From positions 1 to 46,201 of the forward strand of contig JACCWM010000166.1 in the NCBI GenBank assembly GCA_013697635.1: DNA of 46,201 nucleotides. Direction: 5' to 3'. The DNA is from Lujinxingiaceae bacterium (lineage in GTDB: Bacteria > Myxococcota_A > Bradymonadia > Bradymonadales > Bradymonadaceae). Every line of letters starts with the position of its first letter. Position 1 is the stretch's first letter. The notes under the pieces are model-generated. The model saw only the letters and a list, made by a program, of their open reading frames with translations, was not told where the DNA came from and made no database searches. This document shows, piece after piece, positions 18,459 to 42,979 of this stretch. A program made the translations under genes and the position numbers.

Positions 18459-18480
18459 GCAATGGCTCTAGAGATAAGGA

Positions 18481-19302: not shown

Positions 19303-19309
19303 GTTTACC

Positions 19310-24648: not shown

Positions 24649-24666
24649 AATAAGCATTAACTTATC
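24649..24666 (-). promoter_or_regulatory. AT-rich palindrome upstream of hsdR
   Basis: ATAAG and CTTAT arms of 5 bp flank CATTAA, in the only AT-rich patch of an otherwise GC-rich gap, about 100 bp upstream of the hsdR start. It could be an operator or part of a promoter. The arms are short, so this is weak. Confidence 0.3.
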
Positions 24667-24717
24667 ATTGCCCACGGACGGCGCTCAAGCGCCAAGTGCG
24701 GGGACGCCGGCACAATT

Positions 24718-24804
24718 GGTGCCGAATCGACGGGGTGCCGTGGCGCAAACGGTGCCCGAATCGACGGGGTGCCGTGGCGCAATCGGTGCCCGAATCGACG
24801 GGGC
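24718..24804. repeat. 33-34 bp intergenic tandem repeat
   Basis: Two near-identical units (24718-24750 and 24751-24784) and a third partial unit (from 24785) share GAATCGACGGGGTGCC and GTGGCGCAA. They differ by one inserted C and single changes. The third unit runs into a palindrome. No coding signal supports a gene here. Confidence 0.85.
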
Positions 24805-24814
24805 ACCCCGTCGA
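24795..24814. repeat. Perfect palindrome with 9 bp arms
   Basis: TCGACGGGG and CCCCGTCGA flank a CA centre. It overlaps the third repeat unit and lies about 110 bp downstream of the gspN stop. It could end or stabilise the gsp transcript, but no T-run follows on either strand. Confidence 0.8.
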
Positions 24815-24921
24815 TACCCCGCGTGGCTTTGCCCGGGGTTTCATGGCGCACCCCGTCCAATTCACGCTCGGCTCAAGCAGGCCGGCGAGCGTCAACAAAA
24901 GCATGTCGAGAGCGAGCGAGG

Positions 24922-26016: not shown

Positions 26017-26018
26017 GA

Positions 26019-26639
26019 TCAGGTCTCCTTGTCGCGACGGATATAGGTCGAGACGACCAGCAGCACGCGCACGGTGCCCGGCTGATTGCGCTGGGCGCGA
26101 ACATCCATGCGCTTGACGATCACCGGCTCGCGGCTCTTCTCAATGCGGTCGAGCAGCTCGATGAGCCGATCGATCTGGGTCTCACGAATGTCCACGCGAA
26201 GCTGGCGCTCGATGATGATCGGGCCGGTGTCGGTCTTGGACTTCGAGCCCAGCGGCATCTGGTCTTCGTCGTAGCTGCTCACGATGATGTTGGTGGCAGC
26301 AGCGTGGGTGGCCACAAAGCTCGTGAGCTTGAGGTCGTTGTTGGTCAAGACCTCCTCGGAGAAGCGGGCCAGGCGCTCGCTGCCCTCGACGGGCTGCTCC
26401 GATTTCAGGCGGTAGGCCGGGCCGGCCACGGCCAGCAGGCTCAGCGCCTGCTGGTAGCGCTGCGTATCGCGCTCGAGCTCGCCCAGCGAGCGCTGAAACA
26501 GCCCCACCACGAGCGCGAGCAGCAGCACGCAGAGCACCACACCCATGCCGATCAGGCCCTTGCGCTCGCGCTCGGAGAGCGCGGCGAAGGTCGCGGCCAG
26601 GCCCTTGGTTGCGACCACTGTTTTAACGGGTTTCTTCAT
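26019..26639 (-). CDS. gspM: Type II secretion system protein GspM
   Basis: A 206-residue inner-membrane protein of the secretion platform, expected to bind GspL. A cytoplasmic N-terminus (SERERKGLIG) precedes one transmembrane helix (about 29-48). A coiled-coil segment and a periplasmic ferredoxin-like domain follow (VDIRETQIDRLIELLDRIE). Assignment rests on this layout and on its place between gspL and gspN; the sequence itself is poorly conserved in the family. AAGGA lies seven bases before the ATG. Confidence 0.85.
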   Translation of the reverse strand: MKKPVKTVVATKGLAATFAALSERERKGLIGMGVVLCVLLLALVVGLFQRSLGELERDTQRYQQALSLLAVAGPAYRLKSEQPVEGSERLARFSEEVLTNNDLKLTSFVATHAAATNIIVSSYDEDQMPLGSKSKTDTGPIIIERQLRVDIRETQIDRLIELLDRIEKSREPVIVKRMDVRAQRNQPGTVRVLLVVSTYIRRDKET

Positions 26640-26662
26640 TAGCTCATCCTTATTTCAATCAA

Positions 26663-28399
26663 TCAGGAGCAACCGCTCGAGATGTGCAGCTCAAATTGTA
26701 CCTCGGTCTCGCTTCGCACCTGCAGGCGGTCCTTTCGTACCTCGCGCAAACACTTAAGCTGCTCGAGATCGCTTGCCAGGCGGTCGACCGCCTGGGGATT
26801 CGACGTCACGCCGACGATCTGGACCAGGTTGCGATCGGTGTCGACCTCGATGCGGTCGAGCACGACCGTGACGTCCGAGGACATGCGCGAGATCAGGTTG
26901 TACATCAGCTCATAGGCGCTCATCTTGGGCACGAAGCCCCGATCCGAGCCCGCCTCGCCGGTCAGGCGCGCCTGGATTTTTTGCTGGGTGTCGAGCGGCT
27001 CACCGAAGAGCTCGGTGGACTGCTTGAGCACGGCCGAGCGCATCGCTTCCATCTGGGCGCGCTGCTCCATGCGCTGGGTGGCCAAGAACACGGCCAGAAA
27101 GCACACCAGCACGGCCGCCGCAATCCCAATGCGCGTGAGCTGGCCCCGCACGAAGCTCGACTTGCCGCGAAAAGAAAACTCGCCCTGGCGCAGATTGACG
27201 AGCTTTTTCTCCTGGCGGTCGACGGCCTGTTGCAAGGCCAGGCTCAGCCCCAGTCCGATGCTCGCTGCGTGGCGCTCGGCCGCGGGCAGATCGGCCAAAA
27301 TGACGTTGTGCTCGAGGTGAAAGCGCTCGGTGGGCACCATGAACTCGGCTTCCAAAAAACCTACGAGATTCTTGAGCCGGCTCGAGCCGCCCATGATGTA
27401 GATGTTCTCGACCTTGACGCGGCTCTGGGCAAAGAGGCTTTGAAAGCTGCGGCGCAGCTCGCGCACCAGCGGGCCGAGCGCGCCGGTGATGCTCTCGCTC
27501 AAGGCGAGCATGGCCGGATCTTCGGCGTCGGTGGCGGGCAAAATCGCGCCGCGCGCATGCTTGACCTTCTCGGCGTCCTCATAGGAGATGTTGAAGCGCC
27601 GGGCGATCGCCTCGGTGATGTCGTGGCCGGCCATGCGCACCGCGCGCGCCAGAATGGGCTGGCCCTCGTTTACGACGAGCAGGCGCGTGTAGGTGTGGCC
27701 GATGTCGAGCACGGCGTAGCTGCCCGTACCCATCGGTGCGGCGCGCTCAGCGACGTAGCGAAGCATCAGCTCGGGCACGCCCACAACCACCGGATCGACG
27801 CCGCAGCTTCGCGTGTCTTCCAAAAAGGTGGCCATCTCCTCTTTGCGCGCAAAGCCCACGATCGCCTCGTGCTGCTCGGGCTTGGCGCCGGCCCCGACGA
27901 CGAAATCGTAGACCACGGCGCGCGGATCGAGCGGCAGGCGATCCATCAACAGATGGGGCAGGATGCTCGTAACCTTCTGCTTGCTGTCAAAGGGCACCTC
28001 GACATGGATCGTCATCGCCTTGCCGTTTGGCAAACAGGTCACCACCCACTGGCCCTCGAAGTTGCCGCGCTTGGCCAGGCCATTGAGCGCGCGCACCCAA
28101 CCGGGCGCATCAGCCAGCGGATCGAGCTCCGCCTCGAAGCTCTCGGGCTCCAGCCAGTCGTTGTTGGCCACTCCATCGGCGCCCTCAACCGGCGCCGGGC
28201 GCACGGACGTGGCCTCGTCATCGAAGTCGGACACGCTGGCGACACCGGCGACTCCGGCGACACCTGGCACCGGCGCCACCTCGGCGACGAGCACACGCTC
28301 CTCATCGTAGCCGATGACCCGGAGATCGCGCTGGACCTCAAGGTGCACCACTTTGATCGAGTATGTCCCCAGATCCAATCCTGTTATGCGTGTCGCCAT
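26663..28399 (-). CDS. gspL: Type II secretion system protein GspL
   Basis: GspL links the GspE ATPase in the cytoplasm to the GspM/GspC membrane parts. The 578-residue protein has an actin-like PilM-type cytoplasmic domain. Its first phosphate motif is GLDLGTYSIKVV (7-18), and VLDIGHTYTRLLV and IMGGSSRLKN follow. A transmembrane helix lies near residue 430 and a periplasmic PilN-like ferredoxin domain follows it. A Val-Pro-Gly-Ala-rich low-complexity insert (VPGVAGVAGVASV) near residue 45 is unusual. The protein is longer than E. coli GspL, in keeping with the PilM-PilN-like fusion seen in this lineage. Confidence 0.88.
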   Translation of the reverse strand: MATRITGLDLGTYSIKVVHLEVQRDLRVIGYDEERVLVAEVAPVPGVAGVAGVASVSDFDDEATSVRPAPVEGADGVANNDWLEPESFEAELDPLADAPGWVRALNGLAKRGNFEGQWVVTCLPNGKAMTIHVEVPFDSKQKVTSILPHLLMDRLPLDPRAVVYDFVVGAGAKPEQHEAIVGFARKEEMATFLEDTRSCGVDPVVVGVPELMLRYVAERAAPMGTGSYAVLDIGHTYTRLLVVNEGQPILARAVRMAGHDITEAIARRFNISYEDAEKVKHARGAILPATDAEDPAMLALSESITGALGPLVRELRRSFQSLFAQSRVKVENIYIMGGSSRLKNLVGFLEAEFMVPTERFHLEHNVILADLPAAERHAASIGLGLSLALQQAVDRQEKKLVNLRQGEFSFRGKSSFVRGQLTRIGIAAAVLVCFLAVFLATQRMEQRAQMEAMRSAVLKQSTELFGEPLDTQQKIQARLTGEAGSDRGFVPKMSAYELMYNLISRMSSDVTVVLDRIEVDTDRNLVQIVGVTSNPQAVDRLASDLEQLKCLREVRKDRLQVRSETEVQFELHISSGCS

Positions 28400-28434
28400 A
28401 TGACCTTCTTAATTGCGTATGTAGAAATGCAGCG

Positions 28435-30018
28435 TCAATTCTCGCGCCAGTACAACACTCTGCCCTTGGGCATTCGTTCCGTCTCTTCGCGTAACATGCC
28501 ACGAATAGCCTGCAACTCCTCGGGATCGGTCTCGCGCCCGATCAGCGCCTTTTCGTTGGGCAGGCGGCGCAAGGTCTTAGAAAAATCGATCACCGCCTCG
28601 ATCTTGGACTCGGTGGTGCCGTAGACGCCGCTGGAGCGAATGCGGTAGACCGAGGGCGTCTTTGCCGTCACCGAGCGCAGCAGGCCGGCGCGATTGAACT
28701 CGACCGTCCACTGCGGAAACTGCGGGTTGACCGGGTCGATCATCATGGCCGGATTCATCGACGCCAGCCGCTGATATGCCGGCGAGTAGTTGAGGAACTG
28801 GGCCATCAAAATCGGGTTTTGCTTGAGATCGTTGAGATACGAGGGCAGCTGGCTGACGTTGAGAAAAGCCACCGGCTGGCCGGTCCTGGCCGAGGGCAAC
28901 AACTTGCTCTCGGTGCTGCCCACGTAGGCCAGGAGCACCGAGATCGGGTCCTCGAAAAACGAGCGAATTCCATCCAGGGCCAGCGCGTACCAGAAGATTT
29001 CCTGGGCGACCTGCGGGTTGGTCGCACAGATGCTGCCGGCGGGCTGGCCATCGCCGGCACGCCCAGTCTGGCCGCCCTCGACGTTTTGGCAGAGCACCGA
29101 GTAGAACACCGGCGCCCCGATCACGTTGAGGTTGGGCCGGCCGACGCCGTAGACGGTGAGCTGGTCCTTGAAGGCGCGCATGAACGCCTCGCTCATGCCG
29201 TGCACCTGGTAGAGCTCCTCGACGTGGGTGAGCATGGCGTTTCGCGGGCGCACGTCGTGCGAGTCGTCGCGGTCGTAGGCGCGCCGCTCGTCGCCGCCGG
29301 TGCCACGAATCGTGCAATCGCCGCCGAGCACGATCGCCTCCTCGTTGATATCGACGTAATCGACGATGTACTGCAGCATCGTCGCCCGGTCGATAAGCTC
29401 GCCGGCCTTGTCCTTTTGCTCGAAGATGCCGTCGTACTGGGTGTCGAGAATCATCGAGCAAAGCTGGAGCAGATCGCCGGAGCGAATCTCGTCGCGCGCA
29501 AACTGGTTGATGTCGATGCGCCCCTCCTCGGGCAACACCTTGACATCGAAGCGCCCGGTAAAGTTGCCAAAGCCGCCAATGCCCGCCTCGGTCAGGCTGA
29601 TGCCGCCAATCGGCGTCTCCACGCGACCCGAGTTGAAGGGCCCCATCAACAGATCGATGTACTGATACATCTGAAAGTTGCTGCGCGTCATCGCCCGCCC
29701 GATCAGCCGACCCATCTCGTCGTCGGTGCCGCGCGACTCCTCCTGCAGGCCGAACTGAAAGGCGAGCAAGAGGCGCGAGAGGTTCACGCCCGAGCGCGCC
29801 AGATACAAACTCTTGAGGCTGTCGCGCTCGTTGGAGGCGAGCACCAGGTTGAGGCGCGTGGCATAGGCGAACTCGACGACCGCCGTCGACAAGATCACGA
29901 TTGTCACCAGCGCCAAGATCAGAGCGACCCCCCGAGGCTTATCGCGCGACGGCAGGCGCGCGGGCTGATCGAGCCCTTGCAGCACCTTGAGCGTAGCTTT
30001 TGCGAGCAGGGTCATCAT
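28435..30018 (-). CDS. gspK: Type II secretion minor pseudopilin GspK
   Basis: GspK caps the pseudopilus tip with GspI and GspJ. It is about 528 residues. The prepilin cleavage site is KPRG|VALILALV near residue 30; position +5 is Leu, not Glu, which is the usual exception for GspK. A large globular domain follows and includes helix-hairpin-helix-like segments and repeated NQFARDEI/DYVDINEEA stretches. I start it at the ATG at 30018, with GGAG eight bases upstream at the end of gspJ. The TTG at 30024 overlaps the gspJ stop and lacks good spacing. Confidence 0.92.
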   Translation of the reverse strand: MMTLLAKATLKVLQGLDQPARLPSRDKPRGVALILALVTIVILSTAVVEFAYATRLNLVLASNERDSLKSLYLARSGVNLSRLLLAFQFGLQEESRGTDDEMGRLIGRAMTRSNFQMYQYIDLLMGPFNSGRVETPIGGISLTEAGIGGFGNFTGRFDVKVLPEEGRIDINQFARDEIRSGDLLQLCSMILDTQYDGIFEQKDKAGELIDRATMLQYIVDYVDINEEAIVLGGDCTIRGTGGDERRAYDRDDSHDVRPRNAMLTHVEELYQVHGMSEAFMRAFKDQLTVYGVGRPNLNVIGAPVFYSVLCQNVEGGQTGRAGDGQPAGSICATNPQVAQEIFWYALALDGIRSFFEDPISVLLAYVGSTESKLLPSARTGQPVAFLNVSQLPSYLNDLKQNPILMAQFLNYSPAYQRLASMNPAMMIDPVNPQFPQWTVEFNRAGLLRSVTAKTPSVYRIRSSGVYGTTESKIEAVIDFSKTLRRLPNEKALIGRETDPEELQAIRGMLREETERMPKGRVLYWREN

Positions 30019-30020
30019 GG

Positions 30021-30827
30021 TCAAAACTCCAGCACTTCGGTCATCGCAATCTGAGTCTGCGTGGTAAAGCTCTCCTTGAGCCCGCGCGGGCCCTGGGGCG
30101 GCAAGACCATCGTGATGCGCACGCGCGGCGGCAGCCTGCCGGCGAACTGGCGCCGGGTGGTATCCCAGTCGCTCACCCAGCGGCCCTGAGCAATCTCCTT
30201 GGTCGTACCAAGCTGCACTTCGCCGGAATCCCAGTACTCGAACTTGATGCTCTCGATCTCGGGCACCATCACGTAGATCGTGCCGCCGCGGGTGATGTTG
30301 TCGTCGAGCGTGGTGTCGCTGCGGCGCATGAGTTGACTGACCGTTCGCCCATCCTCGGAGCGCCCACGTCGCACGAAGTAGCCGATCTCGGCGTGGTGGC
30401 TCGCACGCTCGCCCTCGATCGTTCGAACGTGCGAAAACGATGTAAAATCAATACGATCCGCGCGCCCAATCAAACCAAACTGCACCGGCTCGCGGTAGTT
30501 TCGTCGGGCACGCTGAGCGCCCTCCTCCTCTTCCTCCTCGTCCTGGCCCGTCTCCTCCTCACCGGGCAGCGGCTCGCCGCCGTGGGCTGCGCCGGCGACG
30601 TAGGCGCCGCCAATTTCGGTGGCCATGCGGTTCATCGACAGGCGCACGATCTGGAAGCGCTCGTAGCGCTCCTCCATGAAATCGCGCGTCTCAAACATGT
30701 TCGAGACGCTCGCCCAGACCACGACCGTGATCGCGGCCATGATGCTCACCGCGATCAGCACCTCGACGAGCGTAAAGCCCGCTGCCGCCCCGGCCCGGCG
30801 AGCATGATGAGTGCGCGAAGTCCTCAT
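30021..30827 (-). CDS. gspJ: Type II secretion minor pseudopilin GspJ
   Basis: A 268-residue minor pseudopilin. The N-terminal signal is cleaved after G17 (AAAG|FTLVEVLI) and has the conserved Glu at +5. A long helix and a beta-rich head follow. The head contains an acidic loop near residue 90 (GEEETGQDEEEEEEG) not expected in E. coli GspJ. It abuts gspI exactly (TAAATG), with GGAGG eight bases before its ATG inside the gspI end, so it is tightly coupled. GspI, J and K together form the pseudopilus tip. Confidence 0.93.
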   Translation of the reverse strand: MRTSRTHHARRAGAAAGFTLVEVLIAVSIMAAITVVVWASVSNMFETRDFMEERYERFQIVRLSMNRMATEIGGAYVAGAAHGGEPLPGEEETGQDEEEEEEGAQRARRNYREPVQFGLIGRADRIDFTSFSHVRTIEGERASHHAEIGYFVRRGRSEDGRTVSQLMRRSDTTLDDNITRGGTIYVMVPEIESIKFEYWDSGEVQLGTTKEIAQGRWVSDWDTTRRQFAGRLPPRVRITMVLPPQGPRGLKESFTTQTQIAMTEVLEF

Positions 30828-31439
30828 TTATTGACCCTCCGGGAAGTCGGAAGAGCCGAACATGTTGAACTCTTTGGTCTCGAGATCGACCACGTACTGC
30901 GTGATCTCGACGGGGAAATCTCTGCCGCCAAAATCAAAGGTCACCGTCAGGGTGACGCGGCGCACCTTCTCGCCAATCTGGTTGATCATGTCGGGAAGCT
31001 GGCCGATCAGCATCGGCAACATCGAGCTAAACGCCGCGTTTCCCTGCATCGCGCCGCCCTGGGCATCGGTGCCACCAAAGAGCTGGGCGTTGAGCTGGCC
31101 CAAAAACGCCTCTTTGGAGTCGTCGGGGATCTCGACCGGCTCGATCAGCGCCTCCCAGCGCATGTTGGGATAGCCCTCGTCGCGAAAGGTGCCGTTGAGC
31201 TTGCGCTCGGCCGTGGCGAAGCCGTCCTCCATGATCTGGTATTCGATGTCGGTCATCTTGCTGCGCGCGAGCAGGCTCGCCTGGGTCAGCTGGTTGGAGA
31301 AGACCGCCTGCTGGCCGCTGTTGGCCATCGTGCCCATCAAGATCGTCAGCGCCGAAGCCAACACCGTCAGCGCGATCATCACCTCGATCAGCGAATACCC
31401 GCGAGCGCCCCGTCGGCAGCCGAAGAGTCGATCAATCAT
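30828..31439 (-). CDS. gspI: Type II secretion minor pseudopilin GspI
   Basis: A 203-residue minor pseudopilin with cleavage after G14 (GARG|YSLIEVMIALTVL) and Glu at +5. The C-terminal head carries TLTVTFDFGG strands typical of the family. I chose the ATG at 31439, preceded by GAGGAGG at ideal spacing, over a TTG at 31457. The start therefore overlaps the gspH stop by 8 bp. Confidence 0.93.
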   Translation of the reverse strand: MIDRLFGCRRGARGYSLIEVMIALTVLASALTILMGTMANSGQQAVFSNQLTQASLLARSKMTDIEYQIMEDGFATAERKLNGTFRDEGYPNMRWEALIEPVEIPDDSKEAFLGQLNAQLFGGTDAQGGAMQGNAAFSSMLPMLIGQLPDMINQIGEKVRRVTLTVTFDFGGRDFPVEITQYVVDLETKEFNMFGSSDFPEGQ

Positions 31440-32121
31440 CGCGTTCCTCCTCGCCAAAATCTGGAGGCGCGTCGAGCTCGTCGCTGTAGATGCGCACCCG
31501 ACCGGTCAAGGGCTCGGTGATCAGCGTATAGCGCGCGCCAGCCTCGTCACCGATCACGATCACCGCCTGCTCCTGAAAGCCGTTTCGAAAAAAACTGATC
31601 GCCGCCTTGCCCGACTCGAAAGGCAGGCGCTGATGGGGCGTGTGAACCTTGTAGATGCGGATGCCCTCGGGCAGCTTTCTGGGCTCGACCACCCCGTCGC
31701 TGACGCGCTGAAAGGTCACGCGCCGGTTGACGCCGAAGGGATCGGCCTCGGCCGCGTTGAACAGATCGTTTTTGGCCCGGTAGCTGTTGGCCAGCTCCTG
31801 GGCCTCCTCGGGCAGCAGCCCCTGGGAGTCGTTGACGTCGAGGCTCTCCACGACGATCGGGCTGTCGGTGACCTCGCTGTAATACTCGTTGGCGTCGAGA
31901 TCGAAGACCAACCTGTACTGCGCATTGTTGATCGCCGCCTGGCTGTAGGTGTACTTGATCACCGAGGTCATGCGCATCGCCTCGTCTTTGAGCTTGGTGT
32001 TGGTCAACAAGCCCATCATATAGACGCCCATCCCCATGAGTCCGGCCACAAGGGCCAGCACCACGAGCAATTCGACCAGCGTTACCCCCCGGTCAAAACG
32101 ATGTGTGCGCCGCTCGATCAA
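31432..32121 (-). CDS. gspH: Type II secretion minor pseudopilin GspH
   Basis: A 229-residue minor pseudopilin with cleavage after G12 (FDRG|VTLVELLVVLAL) and Glu at +5. The globular part ends with ISFFRNGFQEQAVIVIGDE, the usual C-terminal GspH/FimT strand pair. The start is a TTG with AGGTGG just upstream; no in-frame ATG gives a complete signal. It joins the pseudopilus between GspG and the tip. Confidence 0.9.
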   Translation of the reverse strand: MIERRTHRFDRGVTLVELLVVLALVAGLMGMGVYMMGLLTNTKLKDEAMRMTSVIKYTYSQAAINNAQYRLVFDLDANEYYSEVTDSPIVVESLDVNDSQGLLPEEAQELANSYRAKNDLFNAAEADPFGVNRRVTFQRVSDGVVEPRKLPEGIRIYKVHTPHQRLPFESGKAAISFFRNGFQEQAVIVIGDEAGARYTLITEPLTGRVRIYSDELDAPPDFGEEERDD

Positions 32122-32148
32122 AGTGCCACCTGCCCGTTGGTCAAACGA

Positions 32149-32583
32149 TTAGTTCTTGCCGCCGATGTCGTCTTCGGTCCCGGAGATGCCGTCCGGCCCG
32201 GCGCTCGAGATCGAGAAATCCCGGTTGCCGTTTTTCTGGAAGATGTACTCGTTACCCCACGGATCAGGGCGCACCTCTTTGGTCAGCGGCGAGGGACCAC
32301 GCGTAAGCTCCTCGAGGCTGTCAGGCAGACGATGCGGCGAGCTCATCAGGTAATACGAGTTGACCATGCCCTCGAGCTGGCCAATCTCGAGCGCCGCCGT
32401 CTTGGTGTTCGCCTGGTCGAGCGCACCGAAGACGAAGAAGCCCACGACGCCCATGATCGATGCCATGATCGTGACCACGATCATGATCTCGACGAGCGTC
32501 ATACCGCGGCTGCTCACCTTGCTGGCTGCCAAAAAGCGAGAGGTCTTGGGATTGCGGATTCGTTTGCCAAATGCCTTCATCAT
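32149..32583 (-). CDS. gspG: Type II secretion major pseudopilin GspG
   Basis: GspG polymerises to form the pseudopilus that pushes substrates through the secretin. It is 144 residues. Cleavage falls after G27 (SSRG|MTLVEIMIVV) with Glu at +5. The C-terminal family signature is present: RPDPWGNEYIF and the acidic calcium-binding-type loop GPDGISGTEDDIGG. I start at the ATG at 32583, with AAGGAG seven bases upstream; a longer reading frame begins in the preceding spacer. A 71 bp gap separates it from gspF. Confidence 0.97.
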   Translation of the reverse strand: MMKAFGKRIRNPKTSRFLAASKVSSRGMTLVEIMIVVTIMASIMGVVGFFVFGALDQANTKTAALEIGQLEGMVNSYYLMSSPHRLPDSLEELTRGPSPLTKEVRPDPWGNEYIFQKNGNRDFSISSAGPDGISGTEDDIGGKN

Positions 32584-32654
32584 AGTCGTGCTCCTTTTGC
32601 TATCGTTTCGGTTGTTCAATCCAACCATTTGCGTTTGTAAAAAAGGTGAAAGAA

Positions 32655-33881
32655 TCACATCACCGACTGGTTGAGCTGCAAAATCGGCAGCATGATCGCG
32701 AAGACGATAAACGCCACGACCACACCCATGCCGACGATCATGATCGGCTCGAGGATCTTGGTCATCGCCTCGATGCGAATATCGACCTGCTGCTTGTAGC
32801 TAAACGCCACGTTTTGGAGCATCTCCTCGAGCTGGCCACTGCGCTCGCCAACGGCGATCATGTGGGTGACGAGCGGCGGAAACTCGCCGCTTCGCTTGAG
32901 CGGCTGGGCGATGCTCTCGCCCTCTCGGATATTGACGCGCACATCCTCGATCACTTCAACGAGGCGGGTATTTCCCAAGATGTTTTTGACGATGTCGAGC
33001 GCGGTCAAAAGCGGCACGCCGCTCGAGAGCAGAGTGGCCAGCGTGCTCGAGAAGCGCGCGATCGCGATCATGCGCACCAGCGTGCCGACAATGGGCATGC
33101 GCAGCGTAAAGACGTCCCATTTTCTGCGGCCCTTGGGCGAGTTCTTCCACTGAACAAAGCCGAAGGCGGCGACGCCCATCGCCGGGATCAGCAGGTACCA
33201 GAAGCGGCCGAAGAACTCGCTCGAGCCGATCAGGATGCTCGTGATCCAGGGCAGCGCCTGGCCCTGATCCTTGAAGATTGCCGTGACCTTGGGGATGACG
33301 AAGGCGAACAAGATGCCCAGGATGCCCACGCCGACGACCATCATGAGGATCGGGTAGACCATGGCGCCGATGATCTTGCTGCGCAGCTCGATCTGGGCGT
33401 CCAAAAACTCCGTGAGCCGGTCGAGCACGACGTCGAGGTTGCCCGAGCTCTCGCCGGCCTTGACCATGTTGACGTAGAGATGGTTGAAGGCTTTCGGGTG
33501 GTCCTTGAGCACGTTGGCCAGGCTCGAGCCCTCGTTGACCTTGCGGCGAACGTCGGAGAGGATGCGCTTAAGCTCCTCTTTGTCGGCCTGCTCGGTGAGC
33601 GCATTCAAGGTCTCGACGAGCGGGATGCCGGCGCGAATCAAGGTGGCCAACTGGCGCGTCAAAACGGCGATGTCGGTGAGGCTGACGCGCTCGAACATCT
33701 TGGCGAAGTTGACGTCACGATTTTGGGCGGAGCCGGCGCCGCCGCGGCCTTCGAAGACCTCGGTGACAAAGATCCCTTTGCCCTGCAAGGCCGCGCGCAG
33801 CACGTTCATGCTCTCGGCGTCCAGGATCCCCTTGACCGGTTTTCCGGCCTTGTTGAGGCCTTTATACTCGTAAATCGGCAC
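32655..33881 (-). CDS. gspF: Type II secretion inner-membrane platform protein GspF
   Basis: A 408-residue polytopic inner-membrane protein that couples the GspE ATPase to pseudopilus growth. It begins PIYEYKGLNKAGK, then has two GspF domains with the signatures LTRQLATLIRAGIPL and FSSTLATLLSSGVPL. VKAGESSGNLD and VGERSGQLEEML follow each domain. Three hydrophobic segments are visible. The start is a GTG; a 104 bp gap with a strong hairpin separates it from gspE. Confidence 0.97.
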   Translation of the reverse strand: MPIYEYKGLNKAGKPVKGILDAESMNVLRAALQGKGIFVTEVFEGRGGAGSAQNRDVNFAKMFERVSLTDIAVLTRQLATLIRAGIPLVETLNALTEQADKEELKRILSDVRRKVNEGSSLANVLKDHPKAFNHLYVNMVKAGESSGNLDVVLDRLTEFLDAQIELRSKIIGAMVYPILMMVVGVGILGILFAFVIPKVTAIFKDQGQALPWITSILIGSSEFFGRFWYLLIPAMGVAAFGFVQWKNSPKGRRKWDVFTLRMPIVGTLVRMIAIARFSSTLATLLSSGVPLLTALDIVKNILGNTRLVEVIEDVRVNIREGESIAQPLKRSGEFPPLVTHMIAVGERSGQLEEMLQNVAFSYKQQVDIRIEAMTKILEPIMIVGMGVVVAFIVFAIMLPILQLNQSVM

Positions 33882-33985: not shown

Positions 33986-35734
33986 TCATTTCGCGGCCGA
34001 GGCCGCCGCGGCGTCCTCCTGGGTGACGCGCAACACCTCCTCGATGCTGGTCTGACCCTTGATGATCTTGATGCCGCCGTCGTCGCGCAACGAGCGCATG
34101 CCCAGCGCCTGTGCGGCGCGCTTGATCGAGCCGGCGTCCGAGCGGTTCATCACGAGCTTTCGCACATCGTCCTCGACGGTGAGCACCTCGTAGATACCCA
34201 TTCGGCCCCGGTATCCAAGGCCCAGACACGCTTCGCACTCGCCCTCGACCGAGGGCTTGAAAATCGTGCCGTTGCACTTTTGCTCGAGCTCTTGGGGCGT
34301 GATCCCGATCTCGATCAGCTCGTCGGCAAAGGGGCGGTAAGGCACCTTGCAGGCCGGGCAGAGTTTTCGTACCAGGCGCTGGGCCACCGAGGCGATGATC
34401 GTCGAGCTCACCAAGAAGGGCTCGACGCCCATGTCGGTCAAGCGCGTAAAGGCGCCGGCGGCGTCGTTGGTGTGCAAGGTCGAGAAGACGAGATGGCCCG
34501 TCAAGGAGGCCTGAATGGCCATCTCGGCCGTCTCGACGTCACGAATCTCGCCGACCATGATCACGTCCGGATCGTGGCGCAAGTAGCTGCGCAAGCCGGC
34601 GGCGAAGGTGAGCTTGATCTTGGGCTGCACCTGCATCTGGCTGATCCCGTCGAGCTGGTACTCGACCGGATCCTCGATCGTCAGAATATTCTTGTCCGGG
34701 CTGTTGATCTCGCTCAAGCACGAGTAGAGCGTGGTCGTCTTACCGCTACCGGTCGGGCCCGTGACCAAGATGATGCCGTGGGGCCGGTAGATGAGCTTGA
34801 GCAGGTGGTTCATGTGGTCTTCGGCCAGACCGATGTCGCGCAGGTTGAGCAAGACGGCCGACTTGTCCAAGAGACGCATCGTGATGCGCTCGCCATGCAC
34901 CGCCGGCGCGGTCGCCACGCGGATATCGATGTCCTTGCCGGCCATCTTGATGCGGATACGACCGTCCTGGGGCAGGCGCTTTTCGGCGATGTTGAGCCCG
35001 GCCATGATCTTGACGCGGGTGCTCACGCTGGAGTGAAAGCGCTTGGGTGGGCTGGCCACCTCCTTGAGCACGCCGTCGACGCGAAAGCGCACGACGATCT
35101 CTTTTTCGCCGGGCTCGATGTGAATATCACTGGCGCGCTCGCGAACGGCCTGCACGAAGAGGCTGTTGACGAAGCGGATGACCGGGGCCTCGTCGTCGTC
35201 GCTGGCGTCGAGCAGGTCGTTGATGTCGATCGCGGTTTCTTCGGCGTGCGGATTCTCGGCCTCGTCGAGCTCGTCGAGACCGGCGCCAAGGTTGCGACTC
35301 TTGCGATCGAAGGCGATGTTGATCGCGCTCATCAAGGCCATGCCCGGCACGATCACCGGCAACACCTCGGCGCCCACCAGAAAGCGAATCTCGTCGAGCA
35401 CCTCGACGTTGAGCGGATCGTCGGTGCCCACGAGCACGTAGCCCTCGCGCCTGGCAAAGGGCAGCACGCGGTTCTCGCGCGCGTAGCCAAGCTGCATGGG
35501 CTCGATCAGGCTGAGATCGACCAGGTCGGCCTCGACCTTGTCCTGAAAGGGGTAGTCGAGCTGGCGTGAGAGCGCGCTCATCACGTCGTGCTCGGTGACC
35601 ACTTCCATGTCGATGAGCACCTCGCCGACGCGCCCGCCCTTTTCGGCCTGCACGCGCAGCGCCCGCTCGAGCGCGGCGGGCTGCAGCTTGCCCATCTGCA
35701 CCAGGATTTCGCCGATCAGTTGCCGGTTGTACAT
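33986..35734 (-). CDS. gspE: Type II secretion ATPase GspE
   Basis: GspE is the hexameric cytoplasmic ATPase that drives the pseudopilus. It is 582 residues. An N-terminal MshEN-like domain (QLIGEILVQMGKL) comes first. The ATPase core carries Walker A GPTGSGKTT near 326, the Asp box ILTIEDPVEYQ, Walker B IMVGEIRD and the His box STLHTNDA. Four cysteines (CPAC near 457, CEAC near 499) form the zinc-binding C-terminal metal domain. It starts 4 bp after gspD, with GGAG seven bases before the ATG. The core residues are intact. Confidence 0.98.
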   Translation of the reverse strand: MYNRQLIGEILVQMGKLQPAALERALRVQAEKGGRVGEVLIDMEVVTEHDVMSALSRQLDYPFQDKVEADLVDLSLIEPMQLGYARENRVLPFARREGYVLVGTDDPLNVEVLDEIRFLVGAEVLPVIVPGMALMSAINIAFDRKSRNLGAGLDELDEAENPHAEETAIDINDLLDASDDDEAPVIRFVNSLFVQAVRERASDIHIEPGEKEIVVRFRVDGVLKEVASPPKRFHSSVSTRVKIMAGLNIAEKRLPQDGRIRIKMAGKDIDIRVATAPAVHGERITMRLLDKSAVLLNLRDIGLAEDHMNHLLKLIYRPHGIILVTGPTGSGKTTTLYSCLSEINSPDKNILTIEDPVEYQLDGISQMQVQPKIKLTFAAGLRSYLRHDPDVIMVGEIRDVETAEMAIQASLTGHLVFSTLHTNDAAGAFTRLTDMGVEPFLVSSTIIASVAQRLVRKLCPACKVPYRPFADELIEIGITPQELEQKCNGTIFKPSVEGECEACLGLGYRGRMGIYEVLTVEDDVRKLVMNRSDAGSIKRAAQALGMRSLRDDGGIKIIKGQTSIEEVLRVTQEDAAAASAAK

Positions 35735-35738
35735 AGGC

Positions 35739-38414
35739 TCACTCCACCACGTCGAGGTCTTGGACCTCGATCTGCGGACGAGGCTGAGGATCGGCCTCCT
35801 GCTCTACTTCCTGCTGGCGGCGACCACGACGCCCTTGGGCCTCGATCGTCTCGGGATTGCTGCCGAGAATGCGGTAGCGCGGACCGCCTTCCTCGAAGGC
35901 CTCGAGCGCCTCGCGACGCGCCTGGTCCTCGTTGGAGGCCGTGCCGATCTGGCGGCGCATGCGCTCGACCAGGCCGCTCTTCTTCTGGAAATTGACCTGC
36001 TTCATGTAGTCGAGGTTGCGCTTTCCAAAGAGCTTGAGCAGCTCGCGGCGCTCCTCGATCTTACGATCGTAGATTTTCTTGAGGTCGGCCTCGCTCTCGA
36101 TGATGTAGGGCGTGAGCATGAGCACGAGGTTTTGCTTGGTCGTAATCGTGCTCGTGTTGCGAAAGAGCATGCCGATGAGCGGGATGTCTCCCAAAAAGGG
36201 CACCTTCTCGATCGTGTCGTTCTCGACGTCGCGAATCAGGCCGCCGATCACGACCGTCGACTGATCCTTGACGAGCACGGTGGTCTTGGCGTTTCGACGG
36301 GTACGAATGGGCGCGCCCGCGCCCAGACCGCCAGCGCCCTTGATGTCGCTGACCTCCTGGTCGACCTCGAGGCGCACGTAGCTGCTCTCGTTGACCTGGG
36401 GCAGGATGCGCAGCGTGATGCCGACATCCTCGTACTCGATGGGCGAGATCAAGCCGCCCAATCCACCCAGGCCGGCCAGACCAGCCAGGCCTGCGGCGCC
36501 TGCGCCGCCGGCGCCTGCGCCGAGGCTGCCGATCAGGTTGGAGAGCCCGCCGCCACCGCCGCCGCCAATGCCGCGCAAAAACGGGACGCGCTCGCCGACG
36601 ACAATCTCGGCCTCCTCGTTGTCCATGGTCAGGATTGCCGGCGTTGACAAGATGTTCACCGAGTTGTCCGTCTGCGTGGCCTGCAAGAGCAGCGCAAAGG
36701 CCGGCAGCGAGATGCTCGTGCCAGGGATCTGCACGAGCGGTCCGAGCAGGCCCAGCGCGCCACCGGCGCCACCCAGCGCCTGCTCGATGCCCTGATAGTT
36801 CGACTGGCCGAGGATCAGGCCACGGGTGTCGTCGACCAGGCCGCTCTCGATCGCCTGCGAGGGGATCAGGGCGTCAAAATCCTGGCCGAGGCCGGCGTTG
36901 AAGCCCACGCCGATCTTGCGGTTGACGTCGAGGCCGATCTCCATGATCACGGCCTCGACATAGACCTGGCGCCGGGGCCGGTCGAGCATGTTGATCACGT
37001 TCTCAAGCGAGAGGTAATCGCGCGGCGAGGCGACCACGACAAGCGCGTTGGTGGCCTTGTGCGCGGTGATCTGCACCTCGCCTGAGAGCAGCGAGGCGAC
37101 GTTCTCCTGGCCGCCTGCCTGGCCTCGCGTGGGCGGTGCCTGACGCGGGGCGGCGGTGGTCTGGCCGCGCCCGCGCTGGCCGGCTTGAACGCCCGAAGCC
37201 AGCGAGGAGAGCGTCGACGCCAGATCCTCGGCGCTCGCGTACTCCAAGAATTTGACGTGGATCTGGCCGCCCACGGCCGTGGGCACGTCGAGGATGTCGA
37301 TCATCTCGCGGATGCGCTCAAAGGAGCGCTGGTTGGTGATGATGATCAGCTGGTTGGTGCGATCGTCGGAGATGATCTCCGAGATCACCACGTCGGAGTC
37401 GCTGCCACCACCTCCACCGCCGGCTTCCGGCGCGCTGGTCTGCTGGGCGGCGGCCCGACGCTGGGCCGCGGTCTGGCGAGCGCGCGGTTGCTGAGCGGCG
37501 GCACGACCGGCCGTGCCGGATTGGCCGCCCTCGAAGACTTCCTTGAGCTTTTGGGCCACTTCCTGAGCGTCGGCGTACAACACCTTGTAGACGTAGACGT
37601 TGTTGACCGCCTCGCCCTTGTCGAGGCGCTTGACCAGCGCCTGAAGACGGCGAAGGTTGGCGGCGTTCTCGGTGATGATCAGGCTGGAGTGGTAGGGGAT
37701 GATCGAGGCCGACTTGCTGGCGAACTTGGTCAGAATCTCGGTAACTTCGTCGATCTTGGCGTTCTCCACGGGCACGATCGCCGTGACCATGCGCGCCTCG
37801 TTGGGGATGGTGTCGCCAGCCTCGTAGGGCGTCATCGGCTCGGAGATCGCGTTTTGAGACTCCACGATCTTCAAGAAATTGCCCATCGGCACGATCGTCA
37901 GCCCGTTCATCTCGAGCGCCGCCAAAAACGCGCGGTAAGCCTCGTCGATAGTCACCTCGGTGGGCGAGATGATCGTGATCGTCTTGTTGGCCTTGAGGCT
38001 GTCGGCGACGATGAAGTTGAGGTTCATCGCGCCCGAGAAGAACTTGACGACCTCCTCGAGGTTGGCCTGGCGAAAGTCGATCGTGACCTTGACGTTGCCC
38101 GGCGTGCGCCGGGCCCGGTAGCTGGGATCGAAGTTCGGCGGCAGGTTGAACGTCTCGCTTGACGAGGCATTCTCCGGCGTGATCACCTGGCGCTGCGTGC
38201 CCGTGCGCGCCGGCGGCGTCGTCGTCGTGCCTCGTGGCGGCGGCGTCGGCTCGTCTTGCTCCTCGCCACCGCGGTTGATCACGCCCGGACGCTCCGTGCT
38301 GGCGTCCTGGGCAAAGACCATCGGCGCGGCAAGGCTCGTCGTGGCGCCCACGAGCGCTGCCAGAAGAGCGCTCAGCGCTCGCCTGTGTCCGCTTCTATGG
38401 GGCGTCTTGGCCAT
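35739..38414 (-). CDS. gspD: Type II secretion outer-membrane secretin GspD
   Basis: GspD forms the outer-membrane secretin channel. From the ATG at 38414 it has a Sec signal peptide (ALSALLAALVGATTSLAAPMVFAQD) and is 891 residues, long for the family. N0, N1, N2 and N3 domains are separated by Gly/Gln/Arg-rich spacers. The secretin domain holds VYVEAVIMEIGLD, VPFLRG and VGITLRILPQVNE. Between the last two motifs, about residues 612-655 form a Gly/Ala/Leu-rich run where the gate loop normally lies. A TTG at 38501 and an ATG at 38453 extend it, but only 38414 has the signal peptide near the N-terminus and an AGGA site. Confidence 0.96.
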   Translation of the reverse strand: MAKTPHRSGHRRALSALLAALVGATTSLAAPMVFAQDASTERPGVINRGGEEQDEPTPPPRGTTTTPPARTGTQRQVITPENASSSETFNLPPNFDPSYRARRTPGNVKVTIDFRQANLEEVVKFFSGAMNLNFIVADSLKANKTITIISPTEVTIDEAYRAFLAALEMNGLTIVPMGNFLKIVESQNAISEPMTPYEAGDTIPNEARMVTAIVPVENAKIDEVTEILTKFASKSASIIPYHSSLIITENAANLRRLQALVKRLDKGEAVNNVYVYKVLYADAQEVAQKLKEVFEGGQSGTAGRAAAQQPRARQTAAQRRAAAQQTSAPEAGGGGGGSDSDVVISEIISDDRTNQLIIITNQRSFERIREMIDILDVPTAVGGQIHVKFLEYASAEDLASTLSSLASGVQAGQRGRGQTTAAPRQAPPTRGQAGGQENVASLLSGEVQITAHKATNALVVVASPRDYLSLENVINMLDRPRRQVYVEAVIMEIGLDVNRKIGVGFNAGLGQDFDALIPSQAIESGLVDDTRGLILGQSNYQGIEQALGGAGGALGLLGPLVQIPGTSISLPAFALLLQATQTDNSVNILSTPAILTMDNEEAEIVVGERVPFLRGIGGGGGGGLSNLIGSLGAGAGGAGAAGLAGLAGLGGLGGLISPIEYEDVGITLRILPQVNESSYVRLEVDQEVSDIKGAGGLGAGAPIRTRRNAKTTVLVKDQSTVVIGGLIRDVENDTIEKVPFLGDIPLIGMLFRNTSTITTKQNLVLMLTPYIIESEADLKKIYDRKIEERRELLKLFGKRNLDYMKQVNFQKKSGLVERMRRQIGTASNEDQARREALEAFEEGGPRYRILGSNPETIEAQGRRGRRQQEVEQEADPQPRPQIEVQDLDVVE

Positions 38415-38497: not shown

Positions 38498-39541
38498 TCA
38501 ACGGATGTCGTACTCGATCTTCTCTTTCTTGCCGCGGCGCTCGACTTCGATCGTCACGTTCTTCTCACGGCGCATCTGCTCGAGCATCTCCATCGCCTTG
38601 CGCTGGTTGTCGAGCGGCACACCGTTGACCGAATGAATGACATCTCCGCTGCGGATTCCGAGCTGCGAGTAGACGCTGTTGGGCGAGATACCGACCAGCC
38701 TTAAGCCTGCCTTCTCGCCGTCTTTGTAGTTGGGCATGATGCGAGCCTGACGCGCGAGCGCCTCAGGATTGGACAGCTCCTGGTCGATCGCGGCGCGATT
38801 GACCGTGTACTTGTTCTCGCTGACCTGTTGCACGGCGTTGCCAGCGCCGGCGCCGACGCCAGCGCCATTTTGGGCCGCGATCGAGGGCTGCTGTGAGCGC
38901 TGTACGCGCTGTGCGGCGGCCTGCGGATCGGCGCCGGTGATCGGCACCCGCGCGTTTGGCGAAGGATTGCCCCCAAGGGTGTTCTCCATGCGAATGAACT
39001 CCAGGCGGCTGTTGCGCCTCAAGATCACGCGGTCGCGGTGAATCTCCAAAATCTCGGCATCCTCGGGGATGATGTCACCCACACGCGTGACGTGGGTCTG
39101 CTGGGTGCGGTTGTCCATCAAGAGCGCCATCGACCATTGCGGCTGCCTGGCGACCATGCAGCCGAGCAACTTGACGTTGAGATCGCTTTGCACGGGCACG
39201 TCCGAGACGATCATCGGCTCGCTGACCATCGGCGCACCAACGCAAATGCCATTTTGGCAATCCTCGCCCTCAGCGCATCCATCGGGACATCCCAGCTCGA
39301 CCACCGGCGCAATGCAGCCAAACAGGCAGCGTCCCGCAATCTCTGAGGACCAATCGGCCTTGGCCAGCCCTTCGTCGATCACCGGCCCACCGGACTTACC
39401 CAGGCTGGGCAGCTCAGGAACCGTGTAGGGAGCAAGCTGGCTGGCCAAGAAGTTGTTGGCGATCAGCGCCAACAACAGGGAGCCAAAACCAATCAGCCCG
39501 AGGTACACAGCCCAGTTGTACTTACGAAAGAAATTTTCCAT
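38498..39541 (-). CDS. gspC: Type II secretion protein GspC with PDZ domain and Cys-rich insert
   Basis: GspC connects the inner-membrane platform to the secretin. The 347-residue protein has a short cytoplasmic N-terminus and one transmembrane helix (about 11-31). A periplasmic homology region (VKLLGCMVARQPQWSMALL, then RVGDIIPEDAEILEIHRDRV) and a C-terminal PDZ domain (GLRLVGISPNSVYSQLGIRS) follow. Between the helix and the homology region lie six cysteines at 72, 76, 85, 89, 95 and 100. They form an EGF-like or CxxxC knot not expected in enterobacterial GspC. It is the first gene of the operon, about 70 bp downstream of a sigma-54 promoter. Confidence 0.93.
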   Translation of the reverse strand: MENFFRKYNWAVYLGLIGFGSLLLALIANNFLASQLAPYTVPELPSLGKSGGPVIDEGLAKADWSSEIAGRCLFGCIAPVVELGCPDGCAEGEDCQNGICVGAPMVSEPMIVSDVPVQSDLNVKLLGCMVARQPQWSMALLMDNRTQQTHVTRVGDIIPEDAEILEIHRDRVILRRNSRLEFIRMENTLGGNPSPNARVPITGADPQAAAQRVQRSQQPSIAAQNGAGVGAGAGNAVQQVSENKYTVNRAAIDQELSNPEALARQARIMPNYKDGEKAGLRLVGISPNSVYSQLGIRSGDVIHSVNGVPLDNQRKAMEMLEQMRREKNVTIEVERRGKKEKIEYDIR

Positions 39542-39610: not shown

Positions 39611-39626
39611 TGCAAATTGCTTGCCA
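39611..39626 (-). promoter_or_regulatory. Sigma-54 promoter for the gsp operon
   Basis: Read on the minus strand, the sequence is TGGCAAG-CAAT-TTGCA. It matches the sigma-54 consensus TGGCACG-N4-TTGCW at all but one position, with exactly ten bases between the GG and GC dinucleotides. Transcription would start near 39600, giving a leader of about 60 bases before the gspC ATG. Sigma-54 promoters need an enhancer-binding protein; one with a GAFTGA motif is encoded next door. Confidence 0.75.
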
Positions 39627-39851: not shown

Positions 39852-39864
39852 TGACAATTTGTCA
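39852..39864. promoter_or_regulatory. Palindromic enhancer-site candidate 1
   Basis: TGACA-ATT-TGTCA, a perfect 5 bp-arm palindrome centred at 39858, about 240 bp upstream of the sigma-54 promoter. It has the same arms and spacing as the site at 39893-39905. It is a candidate binding site for the adjacent NtrC-family regulator. Confidence 0.6.
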
Positions 39865-39892: not shown

Positions 39893-39905
39893 TGACATTT
39901 TGTCA
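39893..39905. promoter_or_regulatory. Palindromic enhancer-site candidate 2
   Basis: TGACA-TTT-TGTCA, centred at 39899, 41 bp (about four helical turns) from site 1 and about 280 bp upstream of the sigma-54 promoter, just after the regulator stop codon. Confidence 0.6.
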
Positions 39906-39919: not shown

Positions 39920-41263
39920 TCAGATTTTGCGGTAGATCGTGCGCGTGGCGATGCCCAGCAGTTTGGCGGCGAGCTTCTTGTCGCCGCCGGTCATCTTGAG
40001 GGTCTCGTGGAGCACGCGGCGCTCGATCTCCTCGAGCGAGGTGCCCAGCGGAATCGTGATGTGGCGCGTCTCGACGGGGCGCGCAACGACGTGCTCGGGC
40101 AGGTCGTCGACGTTGACCAGGCCGTCTTTGTCGAGCACGACGGCGCGCTCAATGACGTTCTCGAGCTCGCGCACGTTGCCGGGCCAGCGGTAGGCCGAGA
40201 GGGCCTCGAGGGCCTCGCGGCTGAAACCGCGGATGTCGCGGCCGTTCTTCTCGCGAAAGCCGCGCAAAAAGTGCTCGGCCAAAAGCGGGACGTCTTCGAG
40301 ACGGTGGCGAAGCGGCGGAACTTTGATCTCGACGACGTTGAGCCGGTAGTAGAGATCGTCGCGAAAAGTGCCGGCGCGCATCTCCTCGTCGAGATCCTTG
40401 TGGGTGGCTGTGACGATGCGCACGTCGACGCGCACGGGCTTGTTCGAGCCCAGACGCTCGAACTCGCCCTCCTGCAAGACGCGCAAGAGCTTGACCTGCA
40501 CGTGCGGGGAGAGCTCGCCAATCTCGTCGAGAAACAAGGTGCCGCCATCGGCGGCTTCGAAGCGGCCGATCTTGCGCTGGTTGGCGCCGGTGAAGGCGCC
40601 CTTCTCGTAGCCGAACAGCTCGCTCTCGAGGATCGACTCGGGCAGGGCCGCGCAGTTGACGGCCACAAAGGGTCGCGTGGCGCGCTCGCTTTGCTGGTAG
40701 ATCATCTGAGCGAAGAGCTCTTTTCCCGTGCCGGACTCGCCGGTCAAGAGCACGGTGGCGTCGCTGGCGGCCACCTGGCGCACCAGCGAGAGGGCCTCAC
40801 GAAGCGGCGGCGACTGGCCGATGATGTTGCGCTCGTGGCGCAAATCGGCGAGCTGGGCCTTGAGCACGCGGTTCTCGGCGACGAGCGCCTGGCGCTCGAG
40901 CGCCTGGTGGGCGGCCTTCAAGATCGTGGCGCGCTTGATCGGCTTGGAGACAAAATCGTAGGCGCCCTCTTTCATGCCCTGCACGGCCAGCTCGACGGTG
41001 CCAAAGGCCGTCATCAAGATCACCTCGGCCTCGGGCTGCAAGGTCTGCACGAGCTTGAGCAGATCCATGCCATCGATGTCGGGCATCATCAGATCGGTGA
41101 TCACCAGGTTGAAGGCGCCTGTGCGCAGCAGGTCAAGGGCCTGCTGGCCGCCCTCGGCCGTGGCCACCTCATAGCCTTCCTTGATGAAAAGGCGCTCGAG
41201 CGTCTTGAGATGAGCCGTCTCGTCGTCGACGAGCAGCAGGCGCGCTTTGAGTGATGTTTTCAT
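39920..41263 (-). CDS. NtrC-family sigma-54-dependent response regulator
   Basis: A 447-residue transcription activator with three intact domains. The receiver (about 8-122) has the acidic pair VDDE, phospho-acceptor D57 in VITDLMMPDIDG, and the lysine of FVSKPI. The AAA+ domain has Walker A GESGTGKE, the sigma-54-contact loop GAFTGA, Walker B GGTLFLDEIGE and RWPGNVRELEN. A Fis-type helix-turn-helix ends the chain (TGGDKKLAAKLLGIATRTIYRKI). I start at the ATG at 41263, since the receiver begins immediately after; a TTG at 41311 adds an unrelated head. No histidine kinase gene is in the window. It sits directly upstream of the gsp operon and its sigma-54 promoter. Confidence 0.95.
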   Translation of the reverse strand: MKTSLKARLLLVDDETAHLKTLERLFIKEGYEVATAEGGQQALDLLRTGAFNLVITDLMMPDIDGMDLLKLVQTLQPEAEVILMTAFGTVELAVQGMKEGAYDFVSKPIKRATILKAAHQALERQALVAENRVLKAQLADLRHERNIIGQSPPLREALSLVRQVAASDATVLLTGESGTGKELFAQMIYQQSERATRPFVAVNCAALPESILESELFGYEKGAFTGANQRKIGRFEAADGGTLFLDEIGELSPHVQVKLLRVLQEGEFERLGSNKPVRVDVRIVTATHKDLDEEMRAGTFRDDLYYRLNVVEIKVPPLRHRLEDVPLLAEHFLRGFREKNGRDIRGFSREALEALSAYRWPGNVRELENVIERAVVLDKDGLVNVDDLPEHVVARPVETRHITIPLGTSLEEIERRVLHETLKMTGGDKKLAAKLLGIATRTIYRKI

Positions 41264-41356: not shown

Positions 41357-42979
41357 ATGGCGAAGGTCATTTACGCGGACGCGGGGGGTATTCAACGGGT
41401 GCATGAGTTGGGTGCCTTGACCACCATTGGTCGGCATCCCGACCAGCACATCCAGATCCTCGATCGCGTGGTCTCCAAAGAACACGCCGTGATCGAGCGT
41501 GGGCTCGATGGCAGCTTCGCGCTCGTCGACGGTGGCAGCCGCAACGGCACCTTCGTCAACGGCGCCGCGATCGCAGGCCGCCGCCACCTCAACGACGGCG
41601 ACACGGTCAGCATCGGCTCGACCACGCTGCTCTTTCAGGTCAATACCGCGCCCGAGCAGGCCCAGGTTCAAAACCGTGTCACGATCCACTCCGACGACCT
41701 CGAATCTCATATCCGCAGCCGCGTCGCCCAGGATCAGGATGCGCGCTTCCAGCCGGAGGCCAAGATCGTCGACGTGGCCACGCTGCGGCGCGACTACGAG
41801 AAGCTGCGCATCGCCCATGAGCTGGGCCAGTCGATCGGCGTTGAGACCGATCTCGACATCCTGCTCGAAAAGATTTTGGAGAAGGCCTTCGAGATCTTTC
41901 CGGCCGACCACGGCGTGATCCTGCTGCGCATCGAGGGCACCGACCGGCTCATCCCGATGGTCGTGCGCTCGCGTGACCAGAGCGCGAAGGTGGGCGACGT
42001 GCGCATCTCCAAGACGATCTTGAATGAGGTGATCGAGGAGAAGCAGGCCGTGCTCTCCTCGGATGCCATGATGGACTCGCGCTTCTCGGGCAGCCACTCG
42101 ATTATCTTGGGCAACATCCGCAGCACGATGAGCGTGCCGCTGCTTCATGAAGCGCGCATCCTGGGCGTGATCCACCTCGACTCCAAGGTCGCCAGCGGGG
42201 CCTTCACCGAAAAAGACTTGCAGATCTTGACCGGCTTTGCGCGCCAGGCGGCCATGCTCATCGAGCATCACAGCCTGATCAAAAAGATGGAGCAAGAGAT
42301 CGTCGTGCGCGAGAAGCTCCACCGACTGCTCTCGCCGCAGCTCGTCGAGGAGGTCGTCAGCGGTCGCCTCGAACTCAAGAAGGGCGGCGAGACGCGCCAG
42401 GCCACGGTGATGTTCGCCGACATTCGAAACTTTACCTCGTTCAGCGAGCGCAACACCCCACAAGGTGTGGTCGACATGCTCAACGAGTATTTCGAGCTGA
42501 TGGTCGACGTGATCTTCAAGTACGAAGGCACGCTCGATAAGTTCATCGGCGACGAAATCATGGCGATCTGGGGCGCGCCGATTGCCCACCCGGACGACAC
42601 CGAGCGCGCCGTGCGCTGCGCCGTCGAGATGCAACAGATGCTCAAGAAGTTCAACGCCGGGCGATCCGAGGAGGACACGCTTCGCATCGGCATCGGGCTC
42701 AACAGCGGCGAGGTCGTCGCCGGCTACATGGGCTCGACCAAGAGCATGAACTACACGGTCATGGGCGACACGGTGAACACCACGAGCCGGATCTGCTCGG
42801 CTGCCGGCCCGGGCGACGTGCTGATCGGCCAGAACACTTTTGACCAGGTCGCCAATCTGATCATCACCGAGAAGCTGCCCCCCACCAAACTCAAGGGCAA
42901 AGCCGAGCACGTCGACATCTACCGCATCCAGGGCATGCGAAAGCGCGACATCCACCCCACGCTTCGCAACTCGACCTGA
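41357..42979 (+). CDS. FHA-GAF-class III adenylate/guanylate cyclase
   Basis: A 540-residue cytoplasmic signalling enzyme. The N-terminal FHA domain (about 1-95) keeps GRHPDQ, SKEHAVIE and GSRNGTFVNG, so it probably binds phosphothreonine. A GAF domain (about 155-310) follows. The class III cyclase domain (about 345-535) has metal aspartates in FADIRNF and GDEIMAIWG, a lysine in DKFIGDE and NYTVMGDTVNTTSRI. The residues needed for catalysis appear present; a cAMP product is likelier than cGMP but not proven. It diverges from the response-regulator gene across 93 bp and converges on the SDR gene. Confidence 0.93.
   Translation: MAKVIYADAGGIQRVHELGALTTIGRHPDQHIQILDRVVSKEHAVIERGLDGSFALVDGGSRNGTFVNGAAIAGRRHLNDGDTVSIGSTTLLFQVNTAPEQAQVQNRVTIHSDDLESHIRSRVAQDQDARFQPEAKIVDVATLRRDYEKLRIAHELGQSIGVETDLDILLEKILEKAFEIFPADHGVILLRIEGTDRLIPMVVRSRDQSAKVGDVRISKTILNEVIEEKQAVLSSDAMMDSRFSGSHSIILGNIRSTMSVPLLHEARILGVIHLDSKVASGAFTEKDLQILTGFARQAAMLIEHHSLIKKMEQEIVVREKLHRLLSPQLVEEVVSGRLELKKGGETRQATVMFADIRNFTSFSERNTPQGVVDMLNEYFELMVDVIFKYEGTLDKFIGDEIMAIWGAPIAHPDDTERAVRCAVEMQQMLKKFNAGRSEEDTLRIGIGLNSGEVVAGYMGSTKSMNYTVMGDTVNTTSRICSAAGPGDVLIGQNTFDQVANLIITEKLPPTKLKGKAEHVDIYRIQGMRKRDIHPTLRNST

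Follow-up and report, generated by a model that had tools for sequence, protein, structure and literature searches.

What switches on type II secretion in a bacterium of a predatory lineage? The type II secretion system (T2SS) exports digestive enzymes thought to be used on prey by Myxococcota predators. In the literature searched, which leaves most subscription journals outside, we found no description of the transcriptional control of T2SS in these predators, nor of the regulator, its sites or the Bradymonad arrangement reported here. The question is raised by a stretch of 46,201 nucleotides (63% GC; hereafter the window), a contig of a 6.2 Mb genome from the Bradymonadales, a predatory lineage. 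An initial annotation of this DNA had placed its gsp operon under sigma-54 control with an adjacent NtrC-type activator, and had suggested signal-controlled secretion.

The genes are read on the minus strand in the order regulator (41263-39920), a 378-bp gap, and then gspC, D, E, F, G, H, I, J, K, L and M. The operon and the genes beyond it are as follows.

38498..39541, minus strand: gspC, first gene of the type II secretion operon (NCBIfam NF041515 and Pfam T2SSC)
35739..38414, minus strand: gspD, secretin (TIGR02517, 499 bits against a cut-off of 351)
33986..35734, minus strand: gspE, ATPase (profile match)
32655..33881, minus strand: gspF (TIGR02120)
30021..32658, minus strand: pseudopilin genes gspG, gspH, gspI and gspJ (gene order; the minor ones below curated cut-offs)
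26019..30024, minus strand: gspK, gspL (PilM-like) and gspM (weak matches and gene order)
21686-24550, minus strand: HsdR
20193-21689, minus strand: HsdS
16890-18458, minus strand: HsdM, with a DUF488 gene in between

The presence of gspC, D, E, F and pseudopilin genes in one operon identifies a type II secretion system, and the curated equivalog cut-offs are exceeded by gspC (whose product matches NF041515, GspC_delta, with 243 bits against a cut-off of 150) and by gspD. At the end of the operon, a 479-codon ORF (24665-26104, minus strand) has no Pfam or NCBIfam match and is a candidate GspN by position. Type I restriction-modification genes follow directly downstream of the operon (16890-24550, minus strand).

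The following features lie at the head of the operon; the palindromes are written in the direction of gspC, and their centres are counted from the predicted start.

39600 (about), minus strand: predicted transcription start of gspC (from sigma-54 promoter geometry)
39611..39626, minus strand: sigma-54 -24/-12 promoter element of gspC, TGGCAAGCAATTTGCA (sequence scan; conserved in relatives)
39852..39864, no strand assigned: proximal enhancer-like palindrome TGACAAATTGTCA (centre about -258; pair conserved)
39893..39905, no strand assigned: distal enhancer-like palindrome TGACAAAATGTCA (centre about -299; pair conserved)
39920..41263, minus strand: NtrC-family response regulator, proposed gsp activator (domain matches; family placement)

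A near-consensus sigma-54 motif had been described about 60 bp before gspC on the correct strand, and our scan confirmed it: TGGCAAGCAATTTGCA has one mismatch to TGGCACG-N4-TTGCW (TGGCAC-N5-TTGCW) with exact GG-N10-GC spacing, and the gspC ATG (39541, minus strand) lies 69 bp beyond its end. The predicted start, 12 nt downstream of the C in the -12 GC, would give a leader of about 59 nt. By itself the motif is not beyond chance, since the window holds 6 sites with up to two mismatches where shuffles predict 9.0, and the 27 genomic sites with up to one mismatch do not exceed the 35 of a reversed control pattern. The motif alone was for this reason rejected as proof of a promoter, and the significance of TGGCAAGCAATTTGCA stems from its position and conservation. 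The genome encodes one rpoN gene (PF04552, E 9.7e-63).

A stronger signal than the -24/-12 motif, absent from the initial annotation, is the pair of palindromes. TGACAAATTGTCA and TGACAAAATGTCA are 41 bp apart in the intergenic region between the regulator gene and gspC, and they probably face the same side of the DNA, as 41 bp is about four helical turns. No other TGACA-N3-TGTCA site occurs in the whole genome, for which base composition predicts 2.4; what is notable is not the number of sites but that both occur together, in phase, at one spot. Because the exact palindrome is found only at the gspC promoter in this genome, the regulon looks like a single operon.

To follow these elements through the class, upstream regions of gspC were taken from relatives, with gspC located by profile, and the palindrome pairs and -24/-12 sites were listed. 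Across 57 class genomes, the spaced pair occurs about once per Bradymonad-family genome and its reversed control pattern never, the latter being absent from all 379 phylum genomes as well. The pair precedes gspC in all 17 Bradymonad-family loci that have enough upstream sequence (the window included), in 4 of 4 sister-family loci and in most of family f3, and its spacing is 40-41 bp in the Bradymonad and sister families. The distance from pair to promoter ranges from 66 to about 240 bp while this spacing is kept, and the combination of a free distance to the promoter with a fixed phase within the pair points to enhancer-like behaviour. In its geometry (paired palindromes, helical phase and variable promoter distance) the arrangement is that predicted for sites of an NtrC-type enhancer-binding protein (EBP).

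The search for the same motif before gspC in related genomes, which the initial annotation had proposed, showed it to be conserved. Between the pair and gspC, a -24/-12 site with up to one mismatch is found in 24 of 32 loci and one with up to two in 30 of 32, counts that come from related, non-independent genomes (three of one genus) and from a match rule loosened after some of the data had been inspected (Y at position 6, R at 7, C/T at 15, A/T at 16). The counts expected from shuffles are 0.10 and 0.79, respectively, and those on the opposite strand are 0 and 1. Under the strict consensus, a site with one mismatch is present in most Bradymonad genera (G000, the window's genome, and G002, G008, G010, G011, G014, G017 and G020). 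One genome (G022) has the pair and no recognisable sigma-54 site, and another (G001) has only a poor site.

These counts bear on the possibility that the -24/-12 element is a chance match, gsp being transcribed from a sigma-70 or ECF promoter whose repressor or activator binds the palindromes. The genome-wide frequency of the motif agrees with such an explanation, but the excess at orthologous positions does not, nor does the recurrence of the same promoter pattern in distant families (below). The distance between pair and promoter is moreover large and variable, unlike that of sigma-70 operator sites, and no sigma-70-like site was found before gspC in a scan that is weak for the phylum Myxococcota. 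We consider a chance match very improbable, and an additional sigma-70-type promoter may serve gsp alongside the sigma-54 one.

The palindromes could also have a different target. They begin 15 bp past the regulator stop codon in the window and, in the Kofleriaceae-type loci described below, they precede the regulator gene, as would be expected if they mainly autoregulated that gene or formed its 3' end. In the window, however, they lie downstream of the regulator gene, and none was found before the regulator gene in Bradymonads. In six genomes (G004, G005, G007, G012, G021 and G022) the regulator gene is elsewhere and the pair still stands before gspC, which indicates that the pair is an element of gsp rather than of the regulator gene. 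A role confined to the regulator gene is the least credible of the alternatives that we weighed, and we favour a role of the pair in gsp transcription.

The gene directly upstream of gspC, initially annotated as that of an NtrC-type activator, encodes an NtrC-type response regulator with a receiver domain (PF00072), a sigma-54 AAA+ domain (PF00158) in which the GAFTGA motif is present, and a Fis-type HTH (PF02954). It does not reach the NCBIfam cut-off of any of the named EBP equivalogs (NtrC, AtoC, ZraR, GlrR, NtrX and FlbD), and its best matches are all well below (for example AtoC, 468 of 714 bits, and ZraR, 445 of 760). About 29 NtrC-type genes score in the window's genome. In a FastTree phylogeny, all gsp-linked regulators form one clade (local support 96) with the paralogues outside, and linkage to gsp was lost repeatedly. 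The recognition helix, xxRTIYRKL, is near-invariant in this clade and different in the paralogues.

Outside the class, we scanned genome contigs with the regulator and obtained 80 named loci, in many of which, across many Myxococcota families, the regulator is followed by GspC. In Anaeromyxobacter terrae, A. soli and an Anaeromyxobacter MAG (L203, L220 and L234), as well as at locus L218, a degenerate pair with a spacing of exactly 40 bp is accompanied by TGGCAYG-N4-TTGCT, which stands 42-51 bp ahead of gspC. Families f18, f42 and f53 mostly carry (A/C)GGCACG-N4-TTGCT. In Polyangiaceae-type loci (f14) the site reads TGGCACG-N4-TCGCW and stands about 40 bp ahead of gspC; a filter requiring TTG in the -12 box skipped this variant, which was found by direct reading. 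In Kofleriaceae-type loci 60-110 bp separate the regulator from the gspC that follows it, so that both are probably on one transcript; here a pair with 30-bp spacing precedes the regulator, and after the pair come a conserved TGGC-N7-CTTG(T/A) element and an ATG. That both pair and promoter precede the regulator in these loci suggests that the control elements move with the head of the operon. The predicted sigma-54/EBP circuit for type II secretion is conserved in much of the Myxococcota.

The circuit is not universal: in family f4 the regulator adjoins gspC, yet neither pair nor promoter is recognisable, and no pair stands at gspC in families f5, f6 and f8. The case of f4, the number of NtrC-type genes in the window's genome and the several genomes that keep the pair at gspC without an adjacent regulator gene would fit a real sigma-54 promoter whose palindromes are bound by another EBP or by an unrelated factor, the neighbouring regulator being incidental. 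Against this, regulator and gspC are neighbours in many Myxococcota families, the pair shifts to a place ahead of the regulator gene where this gene and gspC are in a common operon, and the recognition helix is conserved; family f5, moreover, lacks both a close homologue of the regulator and the pair at gspC. Another binder is in our judgement unlikely, if less so than the two alternatives above, and the adjacent regulator remains the best candidate.

NtrC-family dimers generally bind paired upstream sites, phosphorylation releases oligomerisation of the AAA+ domain, and the GAFTGA loop contacts sigma-54. Applied to the window, sigma-54 RNA polymerase would transcribe gspC-M from the -24/-12 element at 39626-39611 and would be held there as a closed complex. 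A kinase would phosphorylate the regulator on its receiver domain, and dimers of the phosphorylated regulator would occupy the two palindromes about 260-300 bp upstream. The bound regulator would then form an AAA+ oligomer and loop to the promoter, where its GAFTGA loops would engage and the promoter would be opened, placing the secretion apparatus under on/off control. For every step the genome has the corresponding part (receiver, GAFTGA AAA+ domain, HTH, paired sites, promoter and rpoN). The sequences show presence, conservation and geometry of promoter, palindromes and regulator; which protein binds the palindromes is inferred, as are phosphorylation, looping and signal-responsive transcription.

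Taken at the level of sequence, it is quite probable that gspC-M is a sigma-54-transcribed operon activated by the adjacent NtrC-type regulator through the palindrome pair, and a dedicated activator that responds to a signal, with its gene beside the operon, very probably turns export on. Comparative genomics thus supports sigma-54 control with an adjacent activator, as first proposed; for the suggestion that secretion is signal-controlled, the one basis is the receiver domain of the regulator.

A sequence-motif scan found no histidine kinase adjoining the regulator in the Bradymonad loci. Kofleriaceae-type loci often have, upstream of the gsp regulator, a histidine kinase of roughly 950 amino acids with multiple membrane spans, which is a candidate cognate kinase there; its sensor part has no counterpart in the Bradymonad genomes searched. 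Examples, with similar loci elsewhere, are:

L199, 710-3580: large histidine kinase
L190, 1778-4630: large histidine kinase
L206, 2-3031: large histidine kinase

In the window, a gene for an FHA-GAF-class III nucleotide cyclase (41357-42979, plus strand) is divergent from the regulator gene. The two genes are neighbours across families f1 and f2 of the Bradymonads, including genomes in which the regulator lies at a distance from gsp, and this conserved adjacency suggests that cyclase and regulator may work together.

The initial annotation had held that T2SS operons are not generally under sigma-54 control. The target is indeed unusual, but links between T2SS and sigma-54 have been reported (PMC12316311, PMC9743648). 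In an in silico study of the predicted sigma-54 regulon (PLoS One 2025), T2SS COGs, including COG3031 PulC and COG1450 PulD, are reported as enriched among predicted sigma-54 targets, predominantly in Myxococcia (PMC12316311). That enrichment was obtained by promoter matrix only, and neither Bradymonads nor EBP binding sites or upstream activating sites came up in a term search of the text. For Myxococcus xanthus, the same paper reports that deletion of sigma-54 is lethal (PMC12316311). In Plesiomonas shigelloides, from an unrelated lineage, the T2SS-2 cluster is positively regulated by RpoN and lower in an rpoN mutant (RNA-seq and qRT-PCR), and direct regulation is not claimed in the portion of the paper available to us (PMC9743648). 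One T2SS cluster of Azoarcus is induced under nitrogen fixation (PMC3916325).

Other secretion machines are driven by sigma-54 and a cognate EBP, namely T6SS clusters (cited in PMC3162934) and the Desulfovibrio T3SS (PMC4641369), although both the machine and the EBPs differ from those described here. The Desulfovibrio motif groups have TGT/ACA half sites spaced 9-12 bp, unlike the present palindrome (PMC4641369). With NtrC-family regulons in general the locus shares the -24/-12 promoter, the paired palindromic upstream sites at variable distance and the receiver-AAA+-HTH activator with GAFTGA; what sets it apart is its target, an entire type II secretion operon. The mechanism would be classical, and target and regulator are new and well supported as predictions. 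With site-level evidence, T2SS joins T3SS and T6SS as a secretion machine tied to sigma-54, and naming a specific regulator, its predicted binding sites and a promoter turns the trigger of secretion into a testable question.

More tentatively, and with rather less than even confidence, this may be an ancestral, phylum-wide, single-target sigma-54 switch for T2SS, with a distinct NtrC-type regulator, that gates the export of degradative enzymes in predation. M. xanthus reportedly upregulates its T2SS genes on prey (PMC10196010), and the regulator would, if this reading is correct, be a candidate cause.

TGACA-N3-TGTCA pairs also occur away from gspC in family f5, where their spacing is 37-38 bp; these are probably sites of another regulator.

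G042, C114, 7353-7402: palindrome pair
G034, C92, 2390-2439: palindrome pair
G046, C365, 3315-3365: palindrome pair
G048, C104, 1800-1849: palindrome pair

In Polyangiaceae-type loci (L280, L282 and relatives), tandem TGACA-like palindromes with 20-bp spacing are found about 60-110 bp before the conserved start of the regulator, a position that suggests autoregulation of the regulator in these loci.
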